Shown here in pieces: positions 3,417 to 59,128 of a DNA stretch of 64,000 nt. Below the pieces are notes generated by a model that saw only the letters and a program-made list of their open reading frames with translations, was not told where the DNA came from and did not search any database. Location of the stretch: assembly GCF_007833165.1 (NCBI RefSeq), contig NZ_VOBQ01000008.1, positions 124,001 through 188,000 on the forward strand, read 5' to 3'. The DNA comes from Caenimonas sedimenti (GTDB taxonomy: Bacteria; Pseudomonadota; Gammaproteobacteria; Burkholderiales; Burkholderiaceae_C). Each line of letters opens with the position of its first letter. The stretch's first letter is position 1. The position numbers were made by a program, and so were the translations under genes.

Positions 3417-5024
3417 CTACATCCGGAACACGCCGAACTGCGTGTCGCGCTGCGGCTGGCGGCCCGCCATCTCGAACAGCAGGGCCATCGTGTCGCGCGT
3501 CTCCAGCGGGTCGATGACCATGTCGCACCACATGTTGGCGGCGAAGTTGTAGGGGCTGGCGAAGGCCTCGAACTGCTCGCGGATCGGCTGCTTGAAGCGC
3601 TCCTTCTCTTCCTCGGTCCAGCTCGTGCCCTCACGCTCGTGGATGTTGTCGCGCACCATCGTCATGGTCGTCGCCGCCTGCTCGGGCCCCATCAGCGCGG
3701 CGCGGCCGGTGGGCCACATCATCATCACGTGCGGCTTGAAGGGGCGACCGCACATCGCCAGGTAGGCAGCGGCATACGAGCCGCCGGTGATGAGCGTGTA
3801 GCGTGGCACGTTGGCCGAGGCCATCGCGGTCATGAACTTGGCGCCGTGCTTGGCGATGCCTTCGCGCTCGACCGCCTGGCCGACCATGAAGCCCGACACG
3901 TCGGCGATGAAAAGCAGCGGGATGTCGCGCTGGCAGGCCAGCTCGATGAAGTGCGCACCCTTCAGTGCGCTCTCGGAGAAGATGACGCCGTTGTTGGCCA
4001 GGATGCCGACCTGAAAGCCTTTGATGCGGGCGAAGCCGCAGATCATCGAGCTGCCGTAGAGCGGCTTGAATTCCTGCAGGTCGCTGTCGTCAATCAGCCG
4101 CGCTAGCACCTCGCGGTTGTCGGTGGGGTGGCGGTTGTCGGCGCTGACGATGCCGTAAATCTCGCGCGCGTCGAAGCGCGGCGGCTTCGACGCGGCCACA
4201 TCCCAGCGCTGCTTCGGGCCGGTGCCCAGGTTGGCAACGATGCCGCGCACGATGGCGATGGCATGGCTATCGCTCTCGGCCAGGTGGTCGGTGACGCCGC
4301 TGACGCGGCTGTGCATGTCGCCGCCACCGAGCGTTTCGACATCGACCACTTCCTTGGTCGCCGCGTACACCAGCTGCGGCCCGCCGAGGAACATCGCGCC
4401 CTGGTTGCGCACGATCACCGCCTCGTCGCACAGCGCCGGCAGGTAGGCGCCGCCGGCCGTGGACGGGCCGTGTACGGTGGCGATCTGCGTGATGCCTTCG
4501 CCCGACATGCGGATCTGGTTATAGAAGATCGATCCGAACTGCCCGTCGTCCGGAAAGATGTGCGCCTGCTCGGGCAGGTTGGCGCCGCCCGACTGAACCA
4601 TGGTGATGCACGGCAGCCGGTGCTGCCAGGCGAACATCTGCGCCCGCACATGCTTCTTCGAGGTGATGCCGTAGTAGGTGCCGCCCTTCACCGTGGCGTC
4701 GTGAATCATCAACATGCACGGCCGGCCGCTGACCAGGCCCACGCCTGTGATGATGCTGCCGCCCGGAGGCACGCCTTCGTAGAGCCCCTCGCCGGCGAGC
4801 TGGCCGAACTCGAGGAAGGGCGAGCCCGGGTCGAGCACCGCCGCCAGCCTCTCACGCGGCAGCAACTGGCCGCGCTCCTTGTGCAGGCGGCGCGCCTTCT
4901 CCGGGCCGCCGACCAGGGCGCGTGCGCGGCGCGCGTGCAGGTCGGCGATGCGCGCCAGGTAGGCGTCGCGATTGCGCGCGAAGTCGTGGCTGCCGGGCGA
5001 CACGGTGGTCGTCATCAGGGTCAT
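3417..5024 (-). CDS. Acyl-CoA carboxylase, carboxyltransferase (beta) subunit
   Basis: A 535-residue carboxyltransferase of the methylcrotonyl/geranyl-CoA carboxylase type, which transfers CO2 from carboxybiotin to an acyl-CoA. Both crotonase-like domains look intact. The N-domain has the GGANLPEQ segment, GPSTAGGAYLPALCDE and the GGGDMHSRVSGVTDH motif; the C-domain has GGSYAAAYLAMCGR, WPTGRAALMGPEQAA and ends in FGVFRM. It is the reference copy for the two altered paralogues at 50789 and 52550. The partner biotin carboxylase is probably the gene cut by the window edge at 1-210. A second in-frame ATG four codons in is an alternative start. Confidence 0.94.
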   Translation of the reverse strand: MTLMTTTVSPGSHDFARNRDAYLARIADLHARRARALVGGPEKARRLHKERGQLLPRERLAAVLDPGSPFLEFGQLAGEGLYEGVPPGGSIITGVGLVSGRPCMLMIHDATVKGGTYYGITSKKHVRAQMFAWQHRLPCITMVQSGGANLPEQAHIFPDDGQFGSIFYNQIRMSGEGITQIATVHGPSTAGGAYLPALCDEAVIVRNQGAMFLGGPQLVYAATKEVVDVETLGGGDMHSRVSGVTDHLAESDSHAIAIVRGIVANLGTGPKQRWDVAASKPPRFDAREIYGIVSADNRHPTDNREVLARLIDDSDLQEFKPLYGSSMICGFARIKGFQVGILANNGVIFSESALKGAHFIELACQRDIPLLFIADVSGFMVGQAVEREGIAKHGAKFMTAMASANVPRYTLITGGSYAAAYLAMCGRPFKPHVMMMWPTGRAALMGPEQAATTMTMVRDNIHEREGTSWTEEEKERFKQPIREQFEAFASPYNFAANMWCDMVIDPLETRDTMALLFEMAGRQPQRDTQFGVFRM

Positions 5025-42623: not shown

Positions 42624-43094
42624 ATGGAAATCCTCGGCATCGGCCTGCACTTCGAAGATCTGCCTCTGGGCCGCCAGTTCCGCACGGTGGGGCGCACGGT
42701 GACCGAAACCGACATCGTCAACTTCTGCACCTGCACTGGCATGACGGAGGTGCTGTTCACCGATCTCGAGTTCCTGCGCACCGAGTCGGACATCAAGGGC
42801 CGCGTCGCCCCGGGCGCACTCGCGTACACCTTCGCCGAAGGCCTGCTGGTGCACGCGACGATGCAGCACACCGGCTTCGCATTCCTCGAGATGGACCTGA
42901 AAGTGCACAACCCGGTGTTCGTCGGTGACACGCTGCATGTCGAGTGCGAGGTGATCGAAGCGCGGCTGAGCAAGAGCCGTCCCGGCCGCGGCCTAGTCCG
43001 CACGCGCAACCGGATTGTCAAGCAGGACGGCACGCTCGCCATCACCTACACGCCGATGCGCATGATCAAGTGCCGCGACAAGGCGGCAGGCTGA
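42624..43094 (+). CDS. MaoC-like hotdog protein lacking the catalytic Asp/His pair
   Basis: A 156-residue hotdog protein related to the hydratases at 26909 and 62030. It has the shared N-terminal FEDLPLGRQFRTVGRTVTETDIVNF and KGRVAPGALAYTFAEGLL. Where the active copy reads SADYNRLHVD, it has TGMTEVLFTD, so both the aspartate and the histidine of the hydratase motif are lost and phenylalanine sits at the histidine position. It may bind acyl-CoA without hydrating it, or pair with another subunit. A purine-rich GAGAGAGA lies before the ATG. Confidence 0.87.
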   Translation: MEILGIGLHFEDLPLGRQFRTVGRTVTETDIVNFCTCTGMTEVLFTDLEFLRTESDIKGRVAPGALAYTFAEGLLVHATMQHTGFAFLEMDLKVHNPVFVGDTLHVECEVIEARLSKSRPGRGLVRTRNRIVKQDGTLAITYTPMRMIKCRDKAAG

Positions 43095-43108
43095 AGGGAC
43101 CGCGGCTC

Positions 43109-44266
43109 ATGCAGCCCTATGCGCTGAACGACGAGCAGCGCGAGATCCAGGCCCTGGTGCGGCGGCTGGCGCGCGACAAGGTGGCAGCGCGTGCCGCCGC
43201 CATCGACCGCAGCGCCGAGTATCCGCAGGACATGTTCGACCTGCTGCGCGAAGTCGGCCTGTTCACGATCCCGTTTCCGCAGGAGTACGGTGGCACGGGC
43301 AGCATGCTGTCGGCCGCCGTGGCCGTGGAGGAACTGGGCCGCGTCTGCTACAACACCGCCTACCTGCTGATCGTGCAGTGGGTGCCGTTCGGCGCCATCC
43401 TCGCCGCCGGCAGCGATGAGCAGAAGCGGCGCCTGCTCGGCCCGCTGGCCGCGGGCGAGCTGCGCGGCGCGTTTTCCACTACCGAGCCGCAGAGCGGGAG
43501 CGACGTCGCCGGCATCCGCACCCGCGCAAAGCGCTGCGATGGCGGCTACCGCATCAGCGGCTCGAAGATCTGGTGCACCAACTCGCACATCGCCGACTTC
43601 GTGCTCGTGGCGGCCAAGACCGGTGATGACGAGGGCGCACGCGCCATCAACCTGTTCATCGTCGAGCGTGGCAGCAAGGGCTTCACTGTCGGCCGCCACG
43701 AAGACAAGATGGGTGCACGCGGCGTGCCGTCGTGCCCGCTGTTTCTCGACGAGGTGTTCGTGCCCGAAACCAACCGCATCGGCGAGGACGGTCGCGGCTT
43801 CAAGAACGTGATGGAGGCCTTCAACAAGAGCCGTCCACTGATCGGCGCGCGCGGCGTCGGCCTGGCGCAGGGTGCCATCGACCACAGCATCGAGTTCGTG
43901 AAGAACCGCGTCACCTGGGGCCGCAAGGTCAGCGAGAACCAGGGCATCCGCTGGATGCTGGCCGACATGGCGATGCAGACCGAGGCCGCGCGCCAGCTGG
44001 TGTACCACTCGGCGGCGGTGGTGGACAGCGGCGCGTCGGGCATCGAGTTGGCGCCGATCGCGGCCATGGCCAAGTGCTTCGCCAGTGACACCGCGATGCG
44101 CGTGGCCACCGACGCCGTGCAGCTGTTTGGCGCCGCGGGCATCTCGGCCGACACGCCGATCAACCGCTACTTCCGCGACGCCAAGGTGCTGCAGATCATC
44201 GAAGGCACGAACCAGATCCAGCGCAACATCATCGGCGACGGCCTGCTCGGGCGCGCGGCGCGCTAA
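43109..44266 (+). CDS. Acyl-CoA dehydrogenase
   Basis: A 385-residue acyl-CoA dehydrogenase and last gene of this run. It has FSTTEPQSGSDVAGI, KIWCTNSHIADFVLV, QLFGAAGISADTPINRYFRD and the intact base motif IIEGTNQIQRN with glutamate in place. The N-terminus MQPYALNDEQREIQALVRRLA is normal. The ATG at 43109 follows the MaoC-like stop by 14 bases. Downstream, base composition and coding style change sharply at the efflux island, so this marks the end of the catabolic block. Confidence 0.93.
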   Translation: MQPYALNDEQREIQALVRRLARDKVAARAAAIDRSAEYPQDMFDLLREVGLFTIPFPQEYGGTGSMLSAAVAVEELGRVCYNTAYLLIVQWVPFGAILAAGSDEQKRRLLGPLAAGELRGAFSTTEPQSGSDVAGIRTRAKRCDGGYRISGSKIWCTNSHIADFVLVAAKTGDDEGARAINLFIVERGSKGFTVGRHEDKMGARGVPSCPLFLDEVFVPETNRIGEDGRGFKNVMEAFNKSRPLIGARGVGLAQGAIDHSIEFVKNRVTWGRKVSENQGIRWMLADMAMQTEAARQLVYHSAAVVDSGASGIELAPIAAMAKCFASDTAMRVATDAVQLFGAAGISADTPINRYFRDAKVLQIIEGTNQIQRNIIGDGLLGRAAR

Positions 44267-46339: not shown

Positions 46340-47471
46340 TCGATACCTCGACCATCATTCCGGGCTTGAGCAGCAAGCCTTCTTGCCGGACCGACAAGCG
46401 GACTGGAATGCGCTGCGTGATCTTGGTGAAATTGCCCGACGGATTCGGATTCGGCAGCAATGCGAAAGCGCTGGTCGCACTGTTGCCGATCAGGCTCACC
46501 CGGCCTTCAAAAGTTCGCCCAGGGTAGGCGTCGACACGCACCTGCGCAGACTGGCCAAGCCGGATGTCGGCCAGATCCGTTTCCTTGATGTTGGCTTCCA
46601 CCCAGATCGCTTCGGGATCGTGCATGAGCAACACGCGCTGTCCAGCGGCAAGGTAATCGCCGGTATTGGCGAAGGTGCGGTCCACCACCCCGTTGACAGG
46701 AGCGACCAACCGCAGGTCATGCACGTCCAGACGCGACAGCCTCAGTCGGGCGCGAAGACCTTCCGCGTCCGCTCTCGCCCGCTGCGCTTGAGTAGCCAAT
46801 GAATCAAGGCGCGTCGCAGCCTGCGCCTTCGCCAGGCGCGCTTGAGCGGCCCTCGCCTCGGAAGTCAGCTTCTGCTGCTCGCGCTGAGCAATCTTGTAAA
46901 CCGTCTCGCTACGCTGCACGCGCTGTTCGGACACAAACTGCCGGTCTACCAGATCCCGGTCACGCTGGTAATCGGCCCGAGCATTGGCCTCATTCAGGCG
47001 TGCCTGCTCTTGCGCAAGTGCGACGGAGTCCAGTTGGCTCTGCGCTTCTCGCACGGCAGCCTGGGTCGAAGCTCGAGTTTCCGCAATCAACTGCTCCAGA
47101 CGCAGGACTTCAGCCTCGGCACTTTGCAAGCTGGCTGCCTGGGCGCTCGCGGCCAAGCTTGCACTTTCGGCATAGATTTCCCCCATCGTCTGGCCGCGAT
47201 GGACACGGTCGCCTTCCTGGACGGGGCGGGAGGACAGCCAACCGGGTGAGCGGCTGGCCACTGCGATCATTTCGGAGGCGATTCGCGCATCGGTCACATC
47301 CAGATGCGTCATGCGGTGATGAACGAATCGTCCGCCTGTGACCAATACTGCCACTGCGAGCACCACAAGTAATGCATGACGCAGCCCCCGGCGCTCGCCC
47401 AGCGATTGTTTGAATTTTTGCAGCCGCTCAATCACCGGAGTCTCTCGAGAGGCCCCGGGGTCAAGGGCCAA
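46320..47471 (-). CDS. HlyD/EmrA family membrane-fusion protein
   Basis: A 383-residue periplasmic adaptor. One membrane segment (LRHALLVVLAVAVLVTGG) near residue 40 is followed by a lipoyl-like half domain (GWLSSRPVQEGDRVHRGQTMGEI), a long alpha-helical hairpin rich in Ala, Glu, Gln and Arg (roughly residues 105-225), and the second lipoyl and beta-barrel part (LRLVAPVNGVVDRTFANTGDYLAAGQRVLLM). It links the transporter encoded next to an outer-membrane channel not present here. The start is probably TTG at 47471; an internal GTG (VIERLQ) is an alternative. Confidence 0.91.
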   Translation of the reverse strand: MALDPGASRETPVIERLQKFKQSLGERRGLRHALLVVLAVAVLVTGGRFVHHRMTHLDVTDARIASEMIAVASRSPGWLSSRPVQEGDRVHRGQTMGEIYAESASLAASAQAASLQSAEAEVLRLEQLIAETRASTQAAVREAQSQLDSVALAQEQARLNEANARADYQRDRDLVDRQFVSEQRVQRSETVYKIAQREQQKLTSEARAAQARLAKAQAATRLDSLATQAQRARADAEGLRARLRLSRLDVHDLRLVAPVNGVVDRTFANTGDYLAAGQRVLLMHDPEAIWVEANIKETDLADIRLGQSAQVRVDAYPGRTFEGRVSLIGNSATSAFALLPNPNPSGNFTKITQRIPVRLSVRQEGLLLKPGMMVEVSIDTLQR

Positions 47472-47562
47472 GACCTTGAATTGCGCGCAGCGGGTTGACT
47501 GGCGGCGACAAGGTTTTGGTTCCGGTGTGGATCATGAGCGAAGCGCTTAGGACAACGAGAAC

Positions 47563-48000
47563 TCAGCACTCGCGGCTTGAAGCCAGATTGCGGCGCATCT
47601 TGCCCAGGGCGACGAGAACCGCCGCAGCCTCCTTTTTGTCGAGATCGCGCAAAACATCGGCTTGGATCGCGGCGCCAACTTCTCTGATCGCAGCCAGGTG
47701 CGCAGTCGCGGCATCTGTCAAGAACATTCGATAGGCCCTTCTGTCTGCAGCATCGGCATGACGTTCGACCAATCCCGCCTCGGCCAATTGGTCGATCAAA
47801 CGCGCGAGTGTGATGGGTTGGACTTCCAGCAATTTCGCCAAGTCAATCTGCCGAATGCCCTGATGGCGGGCCAGGTAAACGAGCGCCCGCGCTTGCGCCA
47901 AGGTGATGGAGCTTCCCTCCAATCGCCGCTGGAAAGCCTGCCGCATCATCCGGGAAAGGTCAGCCAGCAAGAAACCCAGACTGTCTTGTTCCGATACCAT
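47563..48000 (-). CDS. MarR family transcriptional regulator
   Basis: A 145-residue winged-helix regulator. ITLAQARALVYLARHQGIRQIDLAKLLEVQPITLARLIDQLAEAGLVERHADAADRRAY covers the helix-turn-helix and wing, including the conserved DxRxx wing turn. It is first in the cassette with the adaptor and the transporter, and MarR proteins of this type repress such pumps until an inducing compound binds. Three GTAGTAT repeats overlap its promoter, and the leader is under 20 bases with no ribosome-binding motif. A lower-GC gene than its catabolic neighbours. Confidence 0.92.
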   Translation of the reverse strand: MVSEQDSLGFLLADLSRMMRQAFQRRLEGSSITLAQARALVYLARHQGIRQIDLAKLLEVQPITLARLIDQLAEAGLVERHADAADRRAYRMFLTDAATAHLAAIREVGAAIQADVLRDLDKKEAAAVLVALGKMRRNLASSREC

Positions 48001-48777: not shown

Positions 48778-50772
48778 TCAATCAGGCGTGATCGACGCCA
48801 CCACCGCGCTACGCTCGACCGTCTGCCCGGCCTGGCAAGAGACCGAGGCGACTGTGCCCGCGCACTCGGCGACGATGCGCATCTCCATCTTCATCGACTC
48901 GAGAATCGCCACCACGGCGCCCTTTTCCACGCGGTCGCCGGGCGCCACGTTGACCTTCAGGATCAGGCCCATCATCGGCGCCTTCAGCTCGCCGCTGGCC
49001 TGCGCCGAGGTACTGATGTAAGACAGGTAGGGCACCACCTTCAGGCTGTGCGAGCCGCGGCGGTCGTGCAGGTACAGCATGTCGCCGTCCCGGTGCAGGC
49101 GCACGGTCTCGCGACGGGTGTCGGTGACCGCCAGGAAGCTGCCGGTGTCGCCAGCCTGCGCCAGCTGCACCCGCACCTGCGCGTCGTTCACGCCCACCAG
49201 CATGCTGCCGTCGGAGCGCAAGGGGCCGAAGCGGATCTCGGCACTGACGCCGTCAATCGTTTCCACGTGCAGGCTGGGGATCGGCGCCAGGCTTTCACCG
49301 CCGACGCTCATCTGCCAGCCGCTGCTGTGCCAGCGGCTCCAGGGGCTGCGCGATTCGACCTGGCGCTGCAACTGCAGCCAGTGGCAGGCGGCCACGGCCA
49401 GGGTCTGCGTGTCGTGCAGCGCGTCGCCCAGCGACCAGCCTGCGATCTGCTCGTCGATCAGCCGCGTGTGGAAGGTGGCGGTGCGGGTCTCGGGCAGGTC
49501 GAGCAGGCGGCGCAGGAAGCTGCGGTTGGTGGTGACGCCGAAGACCACGGTGTCCTCGAGCGCCAGTGACAGCCGGTCCAGCGCTTCGTCGCGCGTCGGC
49601 GCATGCGTGATCAGCTTGGCCAGCATCGAGTCGTAGTAGGGCGTGACTTCCATGCCGCTTTCGATGCCGGTCTCGACGCGCACGCCCAGGTCGGGAAAGC
49701 GCACCTGCGACAGCTTGCCGGTGGACGGCAGGAAGCCTGCCGCCGGGTCCTCGGCGCAGATGCGCGCCTCGACGGCATGGCCGTGGATGCGCACATCGCC
49801 CTGCTGTACGGGCAGTCCTTCGCCGCTGGCGATGCGCAGCATGATCTCGACGATGTCCAGGCCCGTCACCATTTCAGTCACCGGGTGCTCGACCTGCAGG
49901 CGCGGATTGACCTCGAGGAAGTGGTACTCGTCGGCACCGACGATGAACTCGACCGTGCCCACGCCGCGGTACTTGAGCCGTTCGCCCAGCCGCACTGCAT
50001 CGGCCGCCATGCTATCGCGCATCTTGGCGCTCAGGTTGGCCGCAGGCGCCTCCTCGATCACCTTCTGGTGGCGTCGCTGCAGCGTGCACTCGCGCTCAAA
50101 CAGATGGATCACCCGGCCCTGGCCATCGCCGGCGATCTGGATCTCGACGTGGCGGCCCTGGCGGATCAGCTTCTCGACGATCAGGCCGGCGTCTCCGAAT
50201 GAGTTCTTCGCCTCGCGCATCGCCGATTCGATCTCCAGCTCCAGGCCTTCGAAGCTGGTGATGCCGCGCATGCCCTTGCCGCCGCCACCGGCCGCGGCCT
50301 TGAGCATCACCGGCAGGCCGACAGCGCGCACCGACGCGGCGATCACGGCCGCGTCGACGCTAGGCGCTTCGCTGCCCGGCACGATCGGCACCTTGGCGGC
50401 CTTGGCCTCGCGCTTGGCCGCGGCCTTGTCGCCCAGGCGCTCGATCACGTCGGCGGTCGGGCCGATGAACACCAGGCCCGCCGCTTCGACGGCACGCGCG
50501 AAGGCGGCGTTTTCGGCGAGGAACCCGAATCCCGGATGGATGGCCTCGGCCCCGACGGATTTCGCGGCGGCGATCACCGCGTCGATGCGCAAGTAGCTTT
50601 CGGAGGCGGGCGCGCCGCCAATCTCCACCGTTTCGCCGATTTGCCGCACATGCAGCGCGTCCCGGTCGGCGCTGGAATGAACACCGGCCACGGCCACGCC
50701 CAACCGCCGGCAGGTACGGGCGATGCGGCAGGCGATCTCGCCACGATTGGCTATCAGAATTTTCTTGAACAC
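48778..50772 (-). CDS. Acyl-CoA carboxylase, biotin carboxylase/biotin carrier (alpha) subunit
   Basis: A 664-residue alpha subunit of the methylcrotonyl/geranyl-CoA carboxylase type. Residues 1-450 form the biotin carboxylase: IANRGEIACRIARTC, the glycine-rich AAAGGGGKGM loop, HLFERECTLQRRHQKVIEEAP and EFIVGADEYHFLEVNPRLQVEHPVTE. The C-terminal biotinyl domain has LESMKMEM, with the biotin-bearing lysine at residue 628. It starts with GTG at 50772, 16 bases after the carboxyltransferase stop, so the two are co-expressed. Its N-terminus is nearly the same as the fragment at 1-210. Confidence 0.95.
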   Translation of the reverse strand: MFKKILIANRGEIACRIARTCRRLGVAVAGVHSSADRDALHVRQIGETVEIGGAPASESYLRIDAVIAAAKSVGAEAIHPGFGFLAENAAFARAVEAAGLVFIGPTADVIERLGDKAAAKREAKAAKVPIVPGSEAPSVDAAVIAASVRAVGLPVMLKAAAGGGGKGMRGITSFEGLELEIESAMREAKNSFGDAGLIVEKLIRQGRHVEIQIAGDGQGRVIHLFERECTLQRRHQKVIEEAPAANLSAKMRDSMAADAVRLGERLKYRGVGTVEFIVGADEYHFLEVNPRLQVEHPVTEMVTGLDIVEIMLRIASGEGLPVQQGDVRIHGHAVEARICAEDPAAGFLPSTGKLSQVRFPDLGVRVETGIESGMEVTPYYDSMLAKLITHAPTRDEALDRLSLALEDTVVFGVTTNRSFLRRLLDLPETRTATFHTRLIDEQIAGWSLGDALHDTQTLAVAACHWLQLQRQVESRSPWSRWHSSGWQMSVGGESLAPIPSLHVETIDGVSAEIRFGPLRSDGSMLVGVNDAQVRVQLAQAGDTGSFLAVTDTRRETVRLHRDGDMLYLHDRRGSHSLKVVPYLSYISTSAQASGELKAPMMGLILKVNVAPGDRVEKGAVVAILESMKMEMRIVAECAGTVASVSCQAGQTVERSAVVASITPD

Positions 50773-50788: not shown

Positions 50789-52375
50789 TCACATCCGGAA
50801 CACGCCGAAGCGCGAAGGCACGGCCGGCACGCGGCCGGCCAGGTCGAGCAGCAACGCCATCACGTCGCGCGTCTCGGCCGGCTCGATCACCATGTCGCAC
50901 CAGGTGTTGCGCGCGAAGTTGTAGGCGTTGGCGAAGTCCTCGAAGGTCTTGCGCACCGGCGCCTTGTAATCCTCGCGCTGCGCGTCGGTCCAGCTCGTGC
51001 CGTCGCGCTTGTGCTGGTCGTCCTTGACCATGGCCAGCGTCGTGGCTGCCTGGTCCGGACCCATGATCGCAGCGCGGCCGTTGGGCCACATGATGAGCGC
51101 GTTCGGCTTGAATGCGCGGCCGCACATCGCCAGGTAGCCCGCGCCGTAGGAGCCGCCGATGATCAGCGTGTACTTGGCGACGTTCGCGCAGGTCATGGCG
51201 GTGATCATCTTGGCACCGTGCTTGGCGATGCCAGCCTCCTCGGCCTCGCGGCCGACCATGAAGCCGTTGATGTCGGCCATGAACAGCAACGGGATGTCGC
51301 GTTGGCAGCACAGCTCGATGAACTGCGTCGCTTTCATCGCGCTCTCGGAGAACAGCACGCCGTTGTTGCACAGGATGCCGACCTCGAAGCCCTTGATGCG
51401 CGCGAAGCCGGTGATCAGCGTGTCGCCATAGTCGGGCTTGAACTCGTGCAGGTCGCTGCCGTCGACGAGGCGCAGCAGGATCTCGCGGTTGTTGGTGGGG
51501 ATGCGTGGGTCGGCGCTGATGATGCCGTTGATCTCGACCGGGTCGTGCAGCGGTTCCACGGCCTCGGCCACGTCGCGGCGCTGGCGCGGTACGTCGCCGA
51601 GGTGGGCGACGACGTCGCGCAGGATCGCGATCGCGTGCGCGTCGCTCTCGGCCAGGCGGTCGGTATTGCCGTCTTGGCGGTTGGCGCGGTCGGCATCGGC
51701 GGGCACCGGCACCGCGTTGGAGCCGAAGGCCAGCGCGCCCTGGTTGCGCACGACCACCACCTCGTCGCACACCGCCGGCACGAACGCTCCGCTGTCGGCG
51801 GCCGGGCCGTGCACGCTGGCTATCTGCGCGATGCCCTCGCGCGACATGCGCAGCTGGCTGTACAGGATGGAGCCGAACTGGCCGTCATCGGCGAACACGC
51901 CAGGCTGGCCGCCACCTGCGCTCAAGACCTCGCGCCCGCCCGACTGCACCATCGTCAGGCAGGGCAAGCGGTGTACCCAGGCGAAGCGCAGCGCCCGCAC
52001 ATGCTTCTTGCTGGTGATGGTGTTGTAGGCGCCATCATGCACCGCGGCGTCGTTGGCGATCACCATGCAGGGCCGGCCCGACACCATGCCCACGCCGGCC
52101 ACGATGCCGGCGCCCGGCGCGGTGTCGCCGTGCAGGCCTTCGCCGGCGAGCTGGCACAACTCGAGGAACGGCGAACCCGGGTCGAGCAGCGCGCTGACGC
52201 GCTCGCGCACCAGCAGCTGACCCGCTTCGCGCAGGGCCGCGCGGGCAGATTCCGTGCCGGCGGCCACCGCCGCGGCGCGGCGCGCGCGCAGATCGGCCAC
52301 GCGGCCCTCGTAGAACTCGCGGTTGGCGCGCAACTCATCGGGGCTGGCCGCGAGGGCCGATTTGATGACGCTCAT
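50789..52375 (-). CDS. Acyl-CoA carboxylase carboxyltransferase paralogue with altered N-domain
   Basis: A 528-residue carboxyltransferase-fold protein. Its C-domain is intact: GGSYGAGYLAMCGRAFKPNAL, WPNGRAAIMGPDQAATTL and the final FGVFRM. The N-domain is changed in three places usually lining the CoA side of the active site: an inserted loop in GGREVLSAGGGQPGVFADDGQ, GPAADSGAFVPAVCDE in place of GPSTAGGAY, and residues 214-241, where the GGxxxHxxxSGVxDH motif is replaced by an 11-residue-shorter unrelated stretch. The start at 52375 is chosen because the open frame beyond it runs antisense through the divergent paralogue. It is followed by the biotin carboxylase. Confidence 0.9.
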   Translation of the reverse strand: MSVIKSALAASPDELRANREFYEGRVADLRARRAAAVAAGTESARAALREAGQLLVRERVSALLDPGSPFLELCQLAGEGLHGDTAPGAGIVAGVGMVSGRPCMVIANDAAVHDGAYNTITSKKHVRALRFAWVHRLPCLTMVQSGGREVLSAGGGQPGVFADDGQFGSILYSQLRMSREGIAQIASVHGPAADSGAFVPAVCDEVVVVRNQGALAFGSNAVPVPADADRANRQDGNTDRLAESDAHAIAILRDVVAHLGDVPRQRRDVAEAVEPLHDPVEINGIISADPRIPTNNREILLRLVDGSDLHEFKPDYGDTLITGFARIKGFEVGILCNNGVLFSESAMKATQFIELCCQRDIPLLFMADINGFMVGREAEEAGIAKHGAKMITAMTCANVAKYTLIIGGSYGAGYLAMCGRAFKPNALIMWPNGRAAIMGPDQAATTLAMVKDDQHKRDGTSWTDAQREDYKAPVRKTFEDFANAYNFARNTWCDMVIEPAETRDVMALLLDLAGRVPAVPSRFGVFRM

Positions 52376-52489
52376 CGAGCGCTCCCGCCGGCGCGCGGCC
52401 GGCCTGTTGCGGGCCGCGCCGCGGATAGGGGGGATTTCATCGGATGGGGGGTGTACGTGGATTGCAGTGGGTGCAGCAAGGCCGTAAGA

Positions 52490-52506
52490 TAACAAACATT
52501 CGTTAG
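52490..52506. promoter_or_regulatory. Imperfect palindrome between the two divergent carboxyltransferase genes
   Basis: TAACAAACATTCGTTAG. The outer arms TAAC and GTTA pair, with two internal mismatches. It is 44 bases before the plus-strand gene at 52550 and 115 before the minus-strand gene at 52375. It shares the TAACAAAC arm with the site at 59051 but has different spacing. TetR-family operators often look like this; the regulator is unknown. Confidence 0.45.
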
Positions 52507-52549
52507 GCTGCCAATCCCTGCCGACCCGTCGGCGCCGCACCACCCCGCC

Positions 52550-54049
52550 ATGCACCCGATCCAATCCGACATCGCCACCGACAGTTCCGACTTCCAGCGC
52601 CAGCGCGACGCCTTCCTGGCGCGGATAGCGGCGCTCAAGCCGCGCCGCGCCGAGGCCACGCTGGGTGGCAACGAGAAGTCGCGCAAGCTGCACAAGAGCC
52701 GCGGCCAGATGCTGCCGCGCGAACGCATTGCGGCCCTGCTCGACCCGGGCTCGCCATTCCTGGAGATCGGCCACCTCGCCGGCGCCGACCTGTACGACGG
52801 CGTGCCGCCGGGGGCGACCATCATCACGGGCGTCGGTCAGGTCAGCGGCCGGGCCTGCATGTTGATTGTCAACGACGCCACCGTGAAGGGCGGCACCATG
52901 TTCGGCATGACAACCAAGCGCCACACCCGGGCGCAGTTGTTCGCCTGGCAGCACCGTCTGCCCTGCATCACCATGGTGCAGTCCGGCGGCGGCTTCCTGC
53001 CCGACTTGGCCAACATCTTTCCCGACGAAGGCCAGGCCGGCTCGATCATGTACAACCAGGTGAAGATGTCGGCCGAAGGCATCGCCCAGATCGCGTTGGT
53101 GCACGGCCCGTCCACAGCCGGCGGGGCCTACATCCCGTCCCTGTGCGACGAGGTGGTCATCATCCGCAACCAGGGTGCGATGTTCCTCGGCAGCCCGCAG
53201 CTGGTGTTCGCCGCCACCGGCGAGGTTATCGATATCGAACCGCTGGGCGGCGCCGAGATGCACAGCCGTCTCAGTGGTGTCACCGACCACATGGCGGAAA
53301 ACGACGCGCATGCCTTGCAGATCACGCGAAACATCGTCGCCCATCTTGGCGAGGCGCCGTGTCTGCGCTGGACGCGCACCGCTGTCGAGGCGCCCCGCTA
53401 CGACCCGCAGGAGTTGCTCGGCCTGGCGCGCATGGGCGACCAGCCCGGCGGCGATTGCCGCGAGATCATCGCCCGCCTGGCCGACGGCAGCCGCTTCCAG
53501 GAGTTCAAGCAACTCCACGGTGAGACCCTGGTCTGCGGCTTCGCGCGCATCGAGGGCTTCGAGGTCGGCATCCTGGCCGGCAACGGCCTGCTCACTTCGC
53601 AGGCCTGCGCCAAGGGCGCGCACTTCATCGAGCTGTGCTGCCAGCGCGACATCCCGCTGCTGTTCCTGGTCGATTCGCCGGGCTTCGCCGACAGCGACCA
53701 GGGCGACCAGCGCGGCGTGGGCAAGCATGGCGCCAAGCTGCTCAACGCCGTGGCCAACGCCGACGTGCCCAAGTTCACCCTCATCGTCGGCGCAGCCTAC
53801 GGCGCGGCCTACCACGCGCTATGCGGCCGCGCCTTCAAGCCCAACGCGCTGCTGATGTGGCCCAACGCCCGCGCCGCCGCCTCGCGCGACGCCGCCGACG
53901 AAGTGGCTGGCGCGCTGAACTGGGCCCGCCATCTCTGGTGCGACATGGTCATCGATCCGGCCGAGACCCGCCCCGCCCTCGCCCAGCTGCTCGACGTGGC
54001 CGGCCGGACTCCCGCCAGACCCACCGAGTTCGCCGTGTTCCGCATGTAG
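52550..54049 (+). CDS. Acyl-CoA carboxylase carboxyltransferase paralogue with shortened C-domain
   Basis: A 499-residue carboxyltransferase-fold protein. Its N-domain is intact: GGGFLPDLANIFPDEGQ, GPSTAGGAYIPSLCDE, FLGSPQLVFAATGEV and GGAEMHSRLSGVTDH. In the C-domain the catalytic-side motif reads GAAYGAAYHALCGRA instead of GGSYxAxYLAMCGR, and about 36 residues are missing after WPNARAA, removing the MGPEQAA helix and the segment that follows. Normal sequence resumes at WCDMVIDPAETR and ends in FAVFRM. It is the mirror case of the paralogue at 50789 and may complement it. It faces the hydrolase gene across six bases. Confidence 0.9.
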   Translation: MHPIQSDIATDSSDFQRQRDAFLARIAALKPRRAEATLGGNEKSRKLHKSRGQMLPRERIAALLDPGSPFLEIGHLAGADLYDGVPPGATIITGVGQVSGRACMLIVNDATVKGGTMFGMTTKRHTRAQLFAWQHRLPCITMVQSGGGFLPDLANIFPDEGQAGSIMYNQVKMSAEGIAQIALVHGPSTAGGAYIPSLCDEVVIIRNQGAMFLGSPQLVFAATGEVIDIEPLGGAEMHSRLSGVTDHMAENDAHALQITRNIVAHLGEAPCLRWTRTAVEAPRYDPQELLGLARMGDQPGGDCREIIARLADGSRFQEFKQLHGETLVCGFARIEGFEVGILAGNGLLTSQACAKGAHFIELCCQRDIPLLFLVDSPGFADSDQGDQRGVGKHGAKLLNAVANADVPKFTLIVGAAYGAAYHALCGRAFKPNALLMWPNARAAASRDAADEVAGALNWARHLWCDMVIDPAETRPALAQLLDVAGRTPARPTEFAVFRM

Positions 54050-54055: not shown

Positions 54056-54928
54056 TCAGATGAACGCGCCGGCCTTGTCACGGCGACCACGCGCACCGAG
54101 AAATTCGATCATCAGCCGGTTGACGTCGTCCGGCGCCTCGAACGCCACCCAGTGGCTGGCGCCGGGAACGATACGGCACGTGATGCGTGGCGCGGTGCGT
54201 TCCAGGTAGGCGGCGCGCGACGCGGCGTCGGGTTGCGGCAGCGGATCGCGCTCGGGCAGGAGGCCCAGCACCGGGCAACGGGTCTGGCGCAGGCTCGGGC
54301 CCAACGTGTCGCGGTAGCCCAGAAAGCGCGACTTGAAGCGTGTCATCCCATGGTTGCGGCGCTGCATCGCGACCGTGAGGTCATCGATCCGCTTCGGGTC
54401 GCCGATCATCATCAGCTCCAGATTGCGGCGGTGCACGGCGTTCGTCTCGGCGTCGCTGGCGCCCGCCGGCACCGGGCGCAAGGGTGGCCGTGACCAGCTG
54501 CCCGGTGGAAATCCGCCCGGTGCGAGCAGGCAGATGCCGGCCACACGCTCGGGCAGGCGCGCCGCCAGCCAGGCCGTCATCACGCCGCCGTAGGAGAAGC
54601 CCGCCGCCAGGAAGGGGACGCCTGCCGGCACCAGGCCGCCCACCACGGCGGCCAGCAGAAACTCGCCGTACCCATCGAGATCGGAATCGTGCGGCACGTC
54701 GAGCGACTCACCCATGCCGGGCAGGTCCGGCAGCACCAGACGGAAGTGCTGCGACAGGGCCCGGATGTTGCGCACCCAGTGCGTCCAGGAACCGGTACCG
54801 CCATGCAGCAGCAGCAGGGTCGGCCCTTGGCCGACCTCGCGGGCCACCACGCCAGCAACCGTTCGGGTCTGGAATTCGAGGTCCGGAAACAGCCCCTCGG
54901 GCGTGATCTCGGGCAGCGGCACCGTCAA
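54056..54928 (-). CDS. Alpha/beta-fold hydrolase
   Basis: A 290-residue alpha/beta hydrolase. LLLLHGGTGSWTHW is the oxyanion-hole region, Ser112 in AAGFSYGGV is the nucleophile, and GASHWVAFEAPDD near the end has the catalytic histidine; an acid in LLPERDPLP is the likely third member. Relatives include ring-fission (C-C bond) hydrolases and esterases. The start is set at TTG 54928, which forms a TTGA overlap with the thiolase-like stop; an ATG further up would overlap that gene by 70 bases. It ends the operon that starts with the fused acyl-CoA dehydrogenase. Confidence 0.85.
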   Translation of the reverse strand: MTVPLPEITPEGLFPDLEFQTRTVAGVVAREVGQGPTLLLLHGGTGSWTHWVRNIRALSQHFRLVLPDLPGMGESLDVPHDSDLDGYGEFLLAAVVGGLVPAGVPFLAAGFSYGGVMTAWLAARLPERVAGICLLAPGGFPPGSWSRPPLRPVPAGASDAETNAVHRRNLELMMIGDPKRIDDLTVAMQRRNHGMTRFKSRFLGYRDTLGPSLRQTRCPVLGLLPERDPLPQPDAASRAAYLERTAPRITCRIVPGASHWVAFEAPDDVNRLMIEFLGARGRRDKAGAFI

Positions 54929-56094
54929 AGGGTGGCCTCCGTTCCCAGGATGTTGGTCACCTGGCTCGACAACACGCCGCCGTTGCCGTGGCACAGCGCC
55001 AGTTCGGCGCCGGCCACCTGGCGCGCGCCTGCTGCGCCGCGCAACTGCTGCACCGCCTCCACCAGCGTGAACATGCCGTACATGCCGGGATGCACGCAGG
55101 ACAGCCCACCGCCATTGGTGTTGACCGGCAGCGCGCCACCAGGCGCGATGGCCCCGCTCGCCACGAAAGCACCGCCCTCACCTTTCTTGCAGAAGCCCAG
55201 GTCTTCGAGGAACAGGATGGTGTTGATCGTGAAGGCGTCGTAGAGCTCGATCACGTCCATGTCGCGCGGCGCCAGGCCGGCCATCTCGAAGGCGCGCCGG
55301 CCGGAATCGACGGCCGCGGTCTGCGTGAGGTCGGCCATCGCGACGATGTTCATGTGGGTCGTGGCCGCCGCCGCGCCCAGCAGGTAGACCGGCTTCCTGG
55401 GCAGGTCGCGGGCACGCGGGGCCGTGGTCATCACCAAGGCTGCGCCGCCGTCGGTGACGAGGCAGCAGTCGCGCACCGTCAGCGGGCTCGACACCATGCG
55501 CGACGCCAGCACTTCGGCCACGCTCAGTGGCCCGCGCATGAAGGCCTCGGGGTTGAGGTTGGCCCAGGCGCGCGCCGCCACGGCGACTGCCGCGAGTTGC
55601 TCGCGCGTGGTGCCGTACTGGTGCATGTGGCGCGAGGCCGCGAGCGCGTACGAAGTGGCCGGGAAGATCGGCGCATACGGCGCCTCATAGGCGAAGGGCT
55701 TGACCGACGAGACCAGCTTGCCCGATGCGGTGCGCTGGTTGCTGCCGTAGAAGATCAGCGCCGTCTCGCACAGCCCTTCCTGCAGCGCCAGCGCCGCCAT
55801 CAGCGTGTACGACAGGAAGGTCGAACCGCCGGTGCGGTTGTTATCGGTGAACTTCGGCTGGATGCCCAGCATCTCGGCGATTAGCAGCGCCGACAGCGGG
55901 TTGGCGTTGCCGGGCAGCGAGCCGAACACGGCATCGACATGGCGGGTGGTGAGCCCCGCTTCGGCCAGCGCCTTGACGCTGGCCTCGACAGCGATGTCTT
56001 CCGAGCTGCGGCCCGGCGCCTCGCCCAGGCCGGCGAGCGCCGCGCCGACGAAGGCGGCCTGGCCGCGCAGGCCGTGCTTCGCACCGCCGCTCAT
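54925..56094 (-). CDS. Thiolase-like protein without the nucleophilic cysteine (Ltp2-like aldolase candidate)
   Basis: A 389-residue thiolase-fold protein. At the cysteine position it reads DNNRTGGSTF, so Thr88 replaces cysteine, and a standard thiolase reaction is not possible. The C-terminal part has VIELYDAFTINTILFLEDLGFCKKGEGGAFV, GGALPVNTNGGGLSCVHPGMYG; the YDxFT motif is that of the lipid-transfer proteins Ltp2, which perform retro-aldol cleavage of sterol side-chain CoA esters. Ltp2 needs a DUF35 partner, and such a gene lies directly upstream, joined by an ATGA overlap. Aldolase activity is inferred from these two facts. Confidence 0.84.
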   Translation of the reverse strand: MSGGAKHGLRGQAAFVGAALAGLGEAPGRSSEDIAVEASVKALAEAGLTTRHVDAVFGSLPGNANPLSALLIAEMLGIQPKFTDNNRTGGSTFLSYTLMAALALQEGLCETALIFYGSNQRTASGKLVSSVKPFAYEAPYAPIFPATSYALAASRHMHQYGTTREQLAAVAVAARAWANLNPEAFMRGPLSVAEVLASRMVSSPLTVRDCCLVTDGGAALVMTTAPRARDLPRKPVYLLGAAAATTHMNIVAMADLTQTAAVDSGRRAFEMAGLAPRDMDVIELYDAFTINTILFLEDLGFCKKGEGGAFVASGAIAPGGALPVNTNGGGLSCVHPGMYGMFTLVEAVQQLRGAAGARQVAGAELALCHGNGGVLSSQVTNILGTEATL

Positions 56095-56507
56095 GCTGCA
56101 CCCCCGGGGGCGGCATCGAAGACCACGCAAGGGGTGCCGTCAGCGCCCGGGGCCACGCGCGCCTGCACCGCCATGCCGATGCGCACCGCGTCGTGCGCCA
56201 CCCCGTCGACGCGCGCCATCATGCGCGGCCCCTCGGACAGGTCGACCAGCACCACGTTGTACGGTCCGCCCTTGTCGGCGCTGCGGTTGACGATGCTGAC
56301 GGCGTAGACCGTGCCGCGGCCGCTGGCCGCCACCCAGTCGAGCTCGACGCTGCCGCAGTGGCTGCAGACCAGGCGCGGGTAGAACACATGCCGGCTGCAA
56401 GCGCGGCAGCGCTGGATGCGCAACTCGCTGGTGGCCAGGTGCTGCGCGTACACCGCGTCGGGGCCAGGCCCCTGGGTCCAGCCGGAGGCGGCCGTGGCTT
56501 CGCTCAT
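56091..56507 (-). CDS. DUF35 zinc-ribbon/OB-fold protein
   Basis: A 138-residue two-part protein. Residues 34-51 form a zinc ribbon with Cys34, Cys37, Cys48 and Cys51 (CRAC, CSHC), followed by an OB fold (GRGTVYAVSIVNRSADKGGPYNVVLVDLSEGPRMMARV). DUF35 proteins bind thiolase-fold partners and position the acyl-CoA or the zinc site. Its stop overlaps the start of the thiolase-like gene (ATGA), as expected for a heteromeric enzyme. The ATG at 56507 follows GGAGAACC; a longer frame upstream is less likely. Confidence 0.9.
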   Translation of the reverse strand: MSEATAASGWTQGPGPDAVYAQHLATSELRIQRCRACSRHVFYPRLVCSHCGSVELDWVAASGRGTVYAVSIVNRSADKGGPYNVVLVDLSEGPRMMARVDGVAHDAVRIGMAVQARVAPGADGTPCVVFDAAPGGAA

Positions 56508-56578
56508 CGCATGGTTCTCCTCGGAATCAGTATTCAGTTGCTGTCGCACCCCGGCGCACGCACGGACCCAATGCCGGA

Positions 56579-58888
56579 TCAGCCCGGCAGTTCAAGCACG
56601 CCCTTGGCCAGGATGTTGCGCTGGATCTCATTGCTGCCGCCGTAGATGCTGGCCGGCCGCGCCGAGAAGAAGACGTTGGCCGGGTGCAGCGCACCGCCCG
56701 GCAGGTCCAGGGACTGGTCGCCGACGCCGCTCTCGCCAGCGGTCTCGAGCATCAGGTCGGCCACGCGCTGCTGCGTCTCGGTGACCCAGATCTTCAGCAT
56801 CGAGACCTCGGGCCCCAGATCGCGGCCGCGGCGCAGCACGTCGACGCAGCGCACGAACAGCGCGTCCAGGTCGTCGACGTCCAGCCGCAGTTCATCGTGG
56901 CGGGCGCGCCACGCGGCGTCCTCGTCCAGCCCGTTGGCGCGCGCCAGTTCGCGCAGCCGCAGCAGCGGCGCACGCGCGCCGCGCGGGTTGCCGATCATGA
57001 TGCGCTCGGAGCCGAGCAGCGACTTGGCCATCGTCCAGCCCTGGTTCAGGCCACCCACCAGGTTGGCGCGCGGCACGCGCACGTCGTCGAAGAAGACTTC
57101 GCAGAACTCGGCGCCGCCGCTGAGGTTGCGGATGCGCTTGACGGTGATGCCCGGGCTGCGCATGTCGGCCAGCAGGAAGCTGATGCCTTCCTGCTTCTTG
57201 GCCTGGGGGTCGGTGCGCACCAGCAGGAAGATCATGTCGGCCTCGTGCGCGAACGAGGTCCAGATCTTCTGCCCGTTGACGATGAAGTCGTCGCCGTCGG
57301 CCACGGCGGAGGTGCGCACGTTGGCCAGGTCGGAGCCGGCCGAGGGCTCGGAATAGCCCTGGCACCAGCGCACCTCGCCGGCCAGAATGCGCGGCAGGAT
57401 CTCGCGCTTCTGCGCTTCGGTGCCGTAGCGGATGATCAGCGGGCCGAGCATCACGACCGCCATGTTGGGTGCGATCTGGATGCCATGGCGGTCGAATTCC
57501 GATTGCAGGGCCACCTGCTCGTAAGCACCCAGGCCCATGCCCCCGTGCTCCTTCGGCCAGTTGGGCGCCGCCCAGCCGCGGGCATTGAGCTTCACGTGCC
57601 ACTCGTGCGTGTCGCGCAGACTCAGCCGGCTTGGCGGAAAACGCCACGCCGGCGGGAAGCTGTCGGCCAGCCAGCGCCGCAACGCGTCGCGCCGGATCGG
57701 CTGCTCGCCGCCGACGATGACTTCGGGCGCAGCCGCGTCGTCGCCGGCCGGTGCCAGCTCGTTGTAGCGCCGCCGGTGCCAGGCCGCGGCGCCCAGCCAG
57801 GCGGCGCCGACCATAGCCTTCTTCAGGTACAGGCCGATGGCGCATTCGTCGGTGTAGCCGATGCCGCCGTGCAGCTGGATGCAGCCCTTGGTGACCTCCA
57901 GCGCCGCGGCCGAAGCGCGCGCCTTGGCCTGGCTGGCGGCTGCCGCCAGCCGGGCGGCATCGGTACCCTCGGCATCGGCCAGCGCGGCCGACTGCGCCAC
58001 CACGGCGCGCGTCAGCTCGACCTGGATCAGCAGGTTGGCCGCGCGGTGCTGCAGCGCCTGGAAGCTGCCGACCGGGCGGCCAAATTGCTCGCGCACGGCG
58101 ATGTACTGCACGCTGCTGTCCAGCGCACGCCCCATCACGCCCAGCAGTTCGGCGGCGGCGGCGATGCGCGCCAGGTCGAGTGCACGCTGCAGCACGGCGT
58201 CGGCCCGCGGCGCATCGGCGACGAGCTGCGCCGCGCCCGTTTCGACGCCCTTGAATTGCAGCTCGCCCCAGAAGCCGCCGTCGACGCGCACCAGCGTGCC
58301 CAGCGTCAGCCCGGGCTGGCCGGCCTCGACCAGCAGCAGCACCGGCCCTTGCGGCGCGAGGGCCGACACGACGAAGGCCCCGGCGCCTTCGGCCGCGGCC
58401 ACGAAACATTTGGCGCCGTCCAGCACGAAGCCGTCGCCGCGCGGCGTGGCACGCAGGCTCTGGGGCCGCGGGGACTGCTCGTGCTCGCATTCCTGCCAGG
58501 CCAGCGCGAACGCCTGTTCGCCGCGCGCCAGCCTCGGCAGCCAGCGCGCGCGCAGCGCCTCGTTGTCGCCATGCAGCAGTGCCCAGGCCGGCAGCAGCGC
58601 CCCGCCGACCAGTGGCTCGGGCGCCAGCGCGCGGCCGCATTGTTCGAGCAGCAGCACGGCCTGCGCCAGGCCGCAGCCGCTGCCGCCGTAAGCCTCCGGC
58701 AGGCACAGGCCAGTCCAGCCCAATGCAGCCATCTCGTGCCAGCGCGCGCGGTCGTAGCCTGGCGCGCAGCCACGCCAGGCGCGCAAGCGTCGGCCCTCTT
58801 CGTCGGCGGCGAAGAAATCCGCGCCGGCGTCACGCAGCATGCGCTGCTCGTCACCCAGGTCGTCGAGCTTGGCGGCCAGGTCGATCAT
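56579..58888 (-). CDS. Fused double acyl-CoA dehydrogenase (FadE34-like)
   Basis: A 769-residue chain made of two acyl-CoA dehydrogenase folds. The N-half (about 1-375) resembles small subunits, with ECEHEQSPRPQ in place of the GSD segment, QLHGGIGYTDECAIGLYLKKA and no classical base. The C-half (about 380-769) is a full large-subunit type, with WPKEHGGMGLGAY, WCQGYSEPSAGSDLANV, KIWTSFAHEADMIFLL and YGGSNEIQRN. This matches the fused FadE34 architecture of mycobacteria, where one chain replaces an alpha2beta2 pair acting on sterol or bile-acid side chains. The split version occurs here at 5079-7420. The ATG at 58888 overlaps a possible short upstream frame (ATGA). Confidence 0.9.
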   Translation of the reverse strand: MIDLAAKLDDLGDEQRMLRDAGADFFAADEEGRRLRAWRGCAPGYDRARWHEMAALGWTGLCLPEAYGGSGCGLAQAVLLLEQCGRALAPEPLVGGALLPAWALLHGDNEALRARWLPRLARGEQAFALAWQECEHEQSPRPQSLRATPRGDGFVLDGAKCFVAAAEGAGAFVVSALAPQGPVLLLVEAGQPGLTLGTLVRVDGGFWGELQFKGVETGAAQLVADAPRADAVLQRALDLARIAAAAELLGVMGRALDSSVQYIAVREQFGRPVGSFQALQHRAANLLIQVELTRAVVAQSAALADAEGTDAARLAAAASQAKARASAAALEVTKGCIQLHGGIGYTDECAIGLYLKKAMVGAAWLGAAAWHRRRYNELAPAGDDAAAPEVIVGGEQPIRRDALRRWLADSFPPAWRFPPSRLSLRDTHEWHVKLNARGWAAPNWPKEHGGMGLGAYEQVALQSEFDRHGIQIAPNMAVVMLGPLIIRYGTEAQKREILPRILAGEVRWCQGYSEPSAGSDLANVRTSAVADGDDFIVNGQKIWTSFAHEADMIFLLVRTDPQAKKQEGISFLLADMRSPGITVKRIRNLSGGAEFCEVFFDDVRVPRANLVGGLNQGWTMAKSLLGSERIMIGNPRGARAPLLRLRELARANGLDEDAAWRARHDELRLDVDDLDALFVRCVDVLRRGRDLGPEVSMLKIWVTETQQRVADLMLETAGESGVGDQSLDLPGGALHPANVFFSARPASIYGGSNEIQRNILAKGVLELPG

Positions 58889-59010
58889 CGTGCCACCGCC
58901 CTCACGACCTCGGCCGGCGTCACGCCGTCGGTGCCCAGGAAGGACATCTCCTTGAGGATGGCGTGCGCGGGGTGCAGCGACACCGGCGCGGCGAATGGAA
59001 GGTAGGTCAC
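58885..59010 (-). CDS. Possible 41-residue small protein upstream of the fused dehydrogenase
   Basis: A GTG at 59010 opens a short frame ending in FLGTDGVTPAEVVRAVAR, whose TGA overlaps the dehydrogenase ATG (ATGA). The overlap and coding-like composition favour a leader peptide or small protein. No ribosome-binding motif or recognised domain is present, so it may be a vestige. The operator-like palindrome at 59051 lies 40 bases ahead. Confidence 0.35.
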   Translation of the reverse strand: MTYLPFAAPVSLHPAHAILKEMSFLGTDGVTPAEVVRAVAR

Positions 59011-59050
59011 GGCTGGCGCTCGGATGGTCTTTGTGGCATGGTACGAGTCT

Positions 59051-59068
59051 AACAAACGGCCGTTCGTT
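59051..59068. promoter_or_regulatory. Near-perfect 18-base palindrome in the divergent gap before the SDR gene
   Basis: AACAAACGGCCGTTCGTT has 8 of 9 paired positions. It lies 60 bases before the SDR start (59129) and 162 before the fused dehydrogenase start. This size and symmetry is typical of TetR-family operators. No TetR gene lies in the window, so a regulator encoded elsewhere is implied. Confidence 0.6.
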
Positions 59069-59120: not shown

Positions 59121-59128
59121 ATCACAGA

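Follow-up and report, generated by a model that had tools for sequence, protein, structure and literature searches.

We analysed a stretch of 64,000 nucleotides from the genome of Caenimonas sedimenti (G000:C45:124001-188000; the genome, G000, has 5.9 Mb, and the whole stretch is called the window below). Two adjacent genes in it encode paralogous carboxyltransferase (CT) beta subunits, here named A and B, which have lost opposite halves of the catalytic site and very probably belong to one biotin-dependent acyl-CoA carboxylase. The genes are divergent, A lying on the minus and B on the plus strand, and are separated by a gap of 174 bp. The features that carry the argument are the following (window positions):

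48778..50772, minus strand: biotin carboxylase (BC) / biotin carrier (alpha) subunit, directly 3' of A; the sole alpha near A and B
50789..52375, minus strand: subunit A, carboxyltransferase beta paralogue of 528 aa, N-domain half-site decayed, C-domain intact (alignment, AlphaFold model)
51692..51724, minus strand: site in A of the deleted or replaced GGxxxHxxxSGVxDH motif, residues 218-228 (P0003 alignment; lost in 17 of 17 A rows)
52490..52505, no strand: palindrome TAACGAATGTTTGTTA, putative common operator, in the 174-bp gap between A and B
52550..54049, plus strand: subunit B, carboxyltransferase beta paralogue of 499 aa, N-domain intact, C-domain decayed (alignment, AlphaFold model)
53876..53890, plus strand: site in B of the missing 36-residue segment MGPEQAA..., about residues 443-447 (P0003 alignment; absent in 24 of 24 B rows)
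3417..5024, minus strand: F (= P0003), intact close paralogue of 535 aa, used as the yardstick (alignment, carboxyltransferase census)

The coordinates and frames that a preliminary description of this DNA had given for A, B and the intact copy proved correct on rechecking, and the palindrome TAACGAATGTTTGTTA was found at 52490-52505, within the gap to which that description had assigned a shared palindrome. The alpha subunit carries ESMKMEM within its C-terminal biotinyl domain. A partner with BC and biotin carboxyl carrier protein (BCCP) domains thus adjoins A, as in the lineage of methylcrotonyl-CoA carboxylase (MCC) and geranyl-CoA carboxylase (GCC).

Complementary losses in A and B

In the MCC-beta family two chains contribute to each active site, one with its N-domain and the other with its C-domain. 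The alignment of A and B with the intact F, which is 61% identical to each of them, reproduced the losses that the preliminary description had reported. Compared with F, A is missing 11 residues and no longer spells out the N-domain motif GGxxxHxxxSGVxDH. Two further changes in N-domain loops, also claimed earlier, were recovered as a 4-residue insertion after SGG and a replacement of STAGGA by AADSGA, and beyond the motif the N-domain loss also affects Lys113 together with the SGG and Gly-Gly loops. B keeps the N-domain motifs and is 36 residues shorter than F at MGPEQAA..., its C-domain being degraded outside this gap as well. Identical regions are lost across 17 A and 24 B rows aligned from collected loci (numbered with L below, genomes with G; the intact copy of L044 was left out of the row alignment), several of which come from separate assemblies, and there are no internal stops in these rows. 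The A proteins of Extensimonas and of L112 keep an SG remnant of the motif, with the GGxxxH part absent, and in their B proteins unrelated residues fill part of the C-domain gap. Sequencing or assembly error, or chance, was considered as a source of the losses and rejected, because the same losses occur in separate assemblies.

The collected loci hold 148 distinct CT open reading frames (ORFs), which were surveyed with patterns for two N-domain motifs and for the C-domain motif. None of the 31 A-type ORFs has the N-domain motifs, while the C motif is present in 22 of them and the other 9 end at the locus edge before it. The C motif is absent from all 42 B-type ORFs, 41 of which carry the N motifs, the last being a fragment of a broken copy. 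All three motifs occur in 70 of the 75 other CT ORFs; the five exceptions comprise genes that are cut (L127, L124) and distant genes outside the reach of the motif patterns (L007 and L145, L008). The notion that half-site loss is a common trait of single enzymes was rejected on this survey, as no half-site copy beyond the A and B types was found among the 148 ORFs, cut and distant genes aside.

The available part of a study of MCC-beta (PMC5991677) proposes A46, A50, K113, T116, L455 and V458 as CoA contacts, A148, F163 and G191 as pocket residues and F380, G421, A148 and G191 as oxyanion sites, these roles being assigned by alignment to P. aeruginosa MCC. When they were mapped on our alignment, the lost segments included residues assigned to the active site, in line with what the preliminary description presumed: A loses the N-domain residues and B the C-domain ones that contact CoA. 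For this column analysis identical rows were counted once (A from 17 to 16 rows, B from 24 to 23) and near-identical rows were kept; H_G585 (cut short; its ORF is whole), X_G462 (at a contig end) and F_G000x (distant) were left out. K113 and G191 are each kept in 23/23 B rows and in 0/16 A rows, T116 is kept in 23/23 B rows, and the A148 column holds Ala or Gly in B and Arg, Gln, Glu or Pro in A. With the K113, A148 and G191 columns altered in all 16 A rows, the complete N-domain acyl-CoA half-site belongs to B and not to A. Conversely, the columns of L455 and V458 fall within a deletion in 23/23 B rows and hold Leu/Val in 16/16 A rows, and B is also without M445, G446, Q449 and A451, so that the complete C-domain half-site (MGxEQAA) belongs to A and not to B.

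The same asymmetry appears in columns that are invariant among 20 intact homologues. A keeps 42 of 83 such columns in the N-domain against 63 of 68 in the C-domain (Fisher p 1.2e-8), B keeps 72/83 against 29/68 (Fisher p 1.1e-8), and the p values are descriptive only, because the rows are related. Columns that have been lost by 90% of rows or more number 19 in the N-domain and 1 in the C-domain of A, and none in the N-domain and 12 in the C-domain of B. The loss of catalytic halves in these two paralogous partners is complementary. The pooled ratio of nonsynonymous to synonymous changes (pN/pS), taken from hand-picked pairs that share members, was 0.231 (N-domain) and 0.115 (C-domain) in A, 0.16 and 0.276 in B, and 0.124 and 0.126 in intact F copies. 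Therefore, each gene is looser in the half that it has lost and tighter in the half that it has kept, and purifying selection acts throughout.

Pairing across genomes and origin of the pair

B was searched for in samples of 59 genus, 399 family, 399 order and 398 phylum genomes, and A in 59 genus, 399 family and 239 class genomes as well as by a genome scan with an A profile and two peptide patterns. Scoring covered the best 3 candidates of each genome in the family, order and phylum scans and the best 6 in the class scan. The samples overlap with each other and with the A-profile scan, and their counts are not additive; lone B genes were sought in the genus, family, order and phylum samples. 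Within the genus, A and B were both found in G000 and G016 and in no other genome (2/59, own genome included), and in the other genus genomes the match to B ends at or before residue 456, as in intact copies. In the family, 8 of 399 genomes, our own among them, carry the degenerate A, and these same eight carry the degenerate B. No further degenerate B was seen in the 399 order and 398 phylum genomes, and no further A in the 239 class genomes.

The A-profile scan returned 25 loci, of which 17 hold a whole A (L100-L116) and 3 a contig-end piece of A (L118, L119 and L123); L118 and L119 end before the 5' end of A, and L119 and L123, from the same metagenome-assembled genome (MAG), probably represent a single gene split in two. 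L117, L120, L121, L122 and L124 contain no A. A divergent B stands immediately 5' of A in all 18 copies with a readable 5' side (L100-L116 and L123), and a biotin carboxylase, whole, cut or in pieces, stands 3' of A in 19 of the 20 A-bearing loci, L123 stopping before that point. A second B follows in tandem in at least 9 of 18 loci (L101, where it is broken, L103, L104, L106, L108, L109, L110, L111 and L123). Altogether the pair was found in at least 18 genomes, window included. The hosts are Schlegelella koreensis (two loci with two A and four B), Xenophilus azovorans DSM 13620, Hydrogenophaga intermedia MER 62, Ramlibacter albus, three Extensimonas and Comamonadaceae ALPHA2B, and the rest are Burkholderiales or Betaproteobacteria MAGs. 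The survey for conserved pairing suggested in the preliminary description thus found A and B together in the same genomes, side by side. That description had named lone homologues of either gene, with the same motif losses and proven activity, as one observation that would count against it; this did not occur, since neither A nor B was seen alone within the searched genomes.

Two loci show irregularities. In L101 the second B copy (4672-6298) is split into three reading-frame pieces, by decay or sequencing error. In L105 the alpha gene next to A and B (G255 C1:916167-917989) is split over two frames, and about 9 kb away there is another, partial copy, which possibly reflects a sequencing error or a duplication.

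The gap between the two genes is conserved as well. The pattern TAACRAATGTTTGKTA was derived from the A/B gaps themselves. Of the 19 gaps (window, L100-L116 and L123), 17 contain this pattern exactly, and L116 and L112 deviate from it at one and four positions, respectively. It has one exact site in the window, where 0.06 matches are expected at three or fewer mismatches, and the gap site is its sole exact match in the genome. Its partial symmetry would suit a repressor dimer and marks it as a putative operator; part of it may be plain promoter. A wider regulon for TAACRAATGTTTGKTA was also considered and rejected: two or fewer mismatches gave 5 rows, two of which are the same site on both strands, against 4 in a reversed-pattern control, and measured by this control the other near-match rows do not exceed chance.

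In two maximum-likelihood trees A and B form separate clades, each with intact sisters. The A clade groups with a gene of G1108 and with the X genes of G462 and of L117, a Bradyrhizobium MAG (support 96/97 in the second tree), and the B clade with gene Y of L117 and two tandem Y genes of G462 (support 100/99 in the second tree). The motifs are present in the X and Y genes as far as their sequence extends, X_G462 ending at a contig end. The X and Y genes of L117 are likewise divergently oriented; an additional ORF separates them, and X has a biotin carboxylase on its 3' side. G1108 belongs to another family of the phylum, and of its 14 candidates, all of which were scored, a single gene reached E 1e-150 or better against A. 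Therefore, the intact form can stand alone; the degenerate A was not seen without B. Since both A and B have intact sisters, two intact paralogues came first and the complementary decay followed. The trees thus indicate that the pair arose by complementary decay of two intact paralogues, which are still intact in a Bradyrhizobium MAG and another Burkholderiales genome. The clade of F is placed unstably and with weak support, with Y/B in the first tree (87/83) and with X/A in the second (89/85). A further arrangement was noted in G462 (C21:3838-9153, L139), where two intact Y-type carboxyltransferases in tandem are followed by one biotin carboxylase, perhaps a heteromer at the intact stage.

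Acyl pocket, the proposed enzyme and its alternatives

The AlphaFold models of A and B each have a mean predicted local distance difference test (pLDDT) value of 83 and a predicted template modelling (pTM) score of 0.86. In Foldseek their best template modelling (TM) scores to MCC-beta chains were 0.92 (A) and 0.93 (B), against 0.40-0.44 for chains of the propionyl-CoA carboxylase (PCC) type. These values therefore place A and B in the MCC/GCC lineage, with the full MCC-beta fold and unlike PCC-beta. According to the available part of PMC4673880, enzymes of this lineage carboxylate the gamma carbon of alpha,beta-unsaturated acids, and by analogy we infer gamma-carboxylation for the A/B enzyme. 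The same part of that paper describes an acyl pocket that is mostly built by the N-domain, with access decided by Phe191 in MCC or Gly162 in GCC, residues whose exchange swaps the preference. We read Phe191 as human numbering, which corresponds to the Phe163 column of P0003 in the alignment with human MCC. This gatekeeper column is Phe in 16/16 A rows, Ala in 16/23 and Gly in 7/23 B rows, and Ala or Gly in three intact Y rows. Since B has Ala or Gly where MCC has Phe, B should accept a larger acyl chain than MCC does. The second B proteins that could be aligned (L103, L106, L108, L110 and L111) form a branch of their own with their orthologues and all have a Gly gatekeeper, possibly a second substrate specificity.

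We consider it very likely that A and B together provide the beta-type subunits of a single biotin-dependent acyl-CoA carboxylase in the MCC/GCC lineage, an A-B heteromer with one live site per dimer. Six-beta cores are described for MCC/GCC enzymes (PMC4673880, available part), and by analogy three A-B heterodimers would make up the beta6 core. The alpha subunit at 48778 would carboxylate its own biotin, and the carboxybiotin would dock on the intact C-domain of A, facing the acyl-CoA held in the intact N-domain of B. The opposite site, between the N-domain of A and the C-domain of B, would be dead and serve as a scaffold, and B would set the substrate via its Ala/Gly gatekeeper. As each locus holds up to two B copies in tandem, one may go further and picture a modular carboxylase, in which one A-alpha pair would give the carboxybiotin half and interchangeable B subunits the acyl pockets for several bulky substrates, with the dead site kept as a scaffold and complementary decay as the origin; this extension is tentative and we hold it somewhat less likely than its opposite.

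The gene census of G000 agrees with a joint function of A and B. The genome has ten CT genes and ten biotin carboxylase genes, which were matched by position, the motifs being checked in part of the eight CT genes other than A and B. Each of these eight lies within about 3.3 kb of its own biotin carboxylase, A and B share one, and one biotin carboxylase (C3) has no CT of this type nearby. The biotin carboxylase of F lies at C45:122243-124210 and overlaps the left edge of the window. A/B is therefore the only locus with two CT genes per biotin carboxylase, an arrangement that favours A and B as components of a single enzyme over A and B as partners of F.

Several observations weigh against an A-B heteromer with a single live site. 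The oxyanion Phe is retained in 22/23 B rows, and the G421 oxyanion column is Ala in 22/23 B rows, as it is in 8/20 intact copies. Because such C-domain features survive, the judgement that the C-domain of B is dead relies mainly on the absence of the segment that contacts CoA and of MG..Q.A. A, for its part, keeps the pocket residue Phe163. The A46 and A50 columns are variable even among intact copies, and the roles taken from PMC5991677 were assigned by alignment. The asymmetry of pN/pS holds in 7 of 10 individual pairs for A (1 equal, 2 reversed) and in 9 of 11 for B (2 reversed). Agreement of the trees alone proves little, because adjacency eases co-inheritance. Finally, an F-type copy is present in all nine genomes of the genus and family samples that hold the pair (our own, G016 and seven of the family), and F could complement either subunit.

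The last point leads to the alternative that survives best, a three-way mixing in which A and B would each form a heteromer with the intact F, which would supply the missing half-site. The F-type copies of these nine genomes are 61-64% identical to A, and F itself is equally close to A and B. However, F has its own biotin carboxylase nearby on the same strand in G000, G016, G255 and G347, and an F-like copy (61%) exists without A and B in G033. Additionally, if F completed each of them, the adjacency, divergence and reciprocal decay of A and B would be left without a reason. We thus regard such mixing as unlikely. It is less likely still that A and B are both decaying or non-catalytic, as pseudogenes or regulatory pseudoenzymes beside a working carboxylase. 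Both have indeed lost residues that are invariant in the intact homologues, and one MAG has a broken second B copy and another a broken alpha gene. But pooled pN/pS is between 0.115 and 0.276 in every domain of A and B, the C-domain of A and the N-domain of B keep most of their invariant columns (63/68 and 72/83), and the pair is kept free of internal stops in the 17 A and 24 B rows and maintained in at least 18 genomes; pseudogenes were rejected by the pN/pS values together with the conserved pairing. The crotonase fold is versatile and half-sites can in principle be repurposed, so A and B might be separate homomeric enzymes of altered chemistry (B an acyl-CoA decarboxylase or hydrolase working without biotin, A a biotin-side transferase to another acceptor), but this is equally improbable: the losses are complementary, and two independent repurposings would account neither for the pairing seen throughout nor for the common gap and the one alpha subunit.

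If A and B do form one heteromer, each of two paralogues is half an enzyme, and the pair offers a testable case of the transition from a homomer to an obligate heteromer, whose path stays visible because an intact sister of each is still found in other genomes. Since the acyl pocket would reside in one partner only, the substrate range could be changed by swapping that partner, which would be useful for enzyme engineering. The pair is also a warning for annotation: either gene alone resembles a broken carboxylase and may be called non-functional or misnamed.

Related systems and neighbouring genes

The MCC-type enzymes known so far contain a single type of beta chain, whose site is complete. 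A and B share the fold, the N-C domain order and the BC-BCCP partner with the beta subunits of MCC (P. aeruginosa 3u9r/3u9s, human 8j4z and L. pneumophila 9tqc), but here there are two paralogues, each of which has kept one half-site. The beta subunit of GCC (5ikl) resembles B in its small gatekeeper residue (PMC4673880, available part), but it too is of one kind, and it is 34-39% identical to A and B in the Foldseek alignments. Two different beta-type sequences in one complex are found in the mycobacterial long-chain acyl-CoA carboxylase (9t97 chains D4a and D5a; 9yx1), which has a PCC-type fold with a TM score of about 0.43 to A. We take these two chains of 9t97 to be AccD4 and AccD5, and both presumably keep complete sites. 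Bacterial acetyl-CoA carboxylase also has its two CT half-sites on different polypeptides, AccA and AccD, each of them a single-domain subunit, whereas both A and B retain both domains, one of them dead.

The closest likeness in principle comes from other, not biotin-dependent, families of steroid breakdown, the dehydrogenases ChsE1/2 and ChsE4/5 and the pair ChsH1-ChsH2, in which, as proposed for A and B, two paralogues make one live site per heterodimer. The steroid acyl-CoA dehydrogenases have two active sites per heterotetramer (PMC8399759), and in ChsH1-ChsH2 a single site is formed by both chains, the inert chain (ChsH2) being shaped for a bulky substrate (PMC11321319), as far as the available parts of these papers tell. 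The accessible text of PMC7780104 similarly describes that Trypanosoma brucei deoxyhypusine synthase and its paralogue form a tetramer with much raised activity. The preliminary description had called a degenerate half-site carboxyltransferase undescribed. As a principle this does not hold, as the steroid heteromers precede it (PMC8399759, PMC11321319, in their available parts); for biotin-dependent carboxyltransferases, no half-site heteromer of this kind was found in the open-access literature by searches that were partly aimed elsewhere.

The neighbours of A and B in the window that recur in other A/B loci are listed below:

38075-43094, plus strand: enoyl-CoA hydratase, MmgE/PrpD, acyl-CoA dehydrogenase and MaoC-like genes (near A/B in L106, L108, L110 and L111, partly in L101 and L116)
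42944..44266, plus strand: acyl-CoA dehydrogenase (near A/B in the same four loci, L106, L108, L110 and L111, partly in L101 and L116)
54925..56130, minus strand: thiolase-fold protein (PRK06158, Thiolase_C_1), possible retro-aldolase (near A/B in L101, L106, L108, L110, L116 and L123)
56091..56549, minus strand: ChsH2-type zinc ribbon / OB-fold (DUF35) protein, the partner type of steroid side-chain aldolases (same six loci: L101, L106, L108, L110, L116 and L123)

CoA ligases are also among the neighbours in the window, and by its gene content the neighbourhood looks like a set for the breakdown of a branched or bulky acid. It is inconstant: L105, L113 and L114 match window proteins only in A, B and alpha, and L112 adds a weak CoA-transferase match. 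Downstream of the carboxylase operon lie an EmrAB-type efflux pair and a MarR-type regulator (44774-48000, minus strand), which are not among the window genes matched in the A/B loci of relatives. On the other side, 56579-59974 (minus strand) is an ORF of 1131 aa with two acyl-CoA dehydrogenase units (about residues 373-737 and 762-1129) and no Pfam match in its approximately 370 N-terminal residues. The Hydrogenophaga locus L116 has a collinear match of 1120 residues (72%) to this ORF, which suggests a genuine fused dehydrogenase pair, perhaps a half-site enzyme itself.

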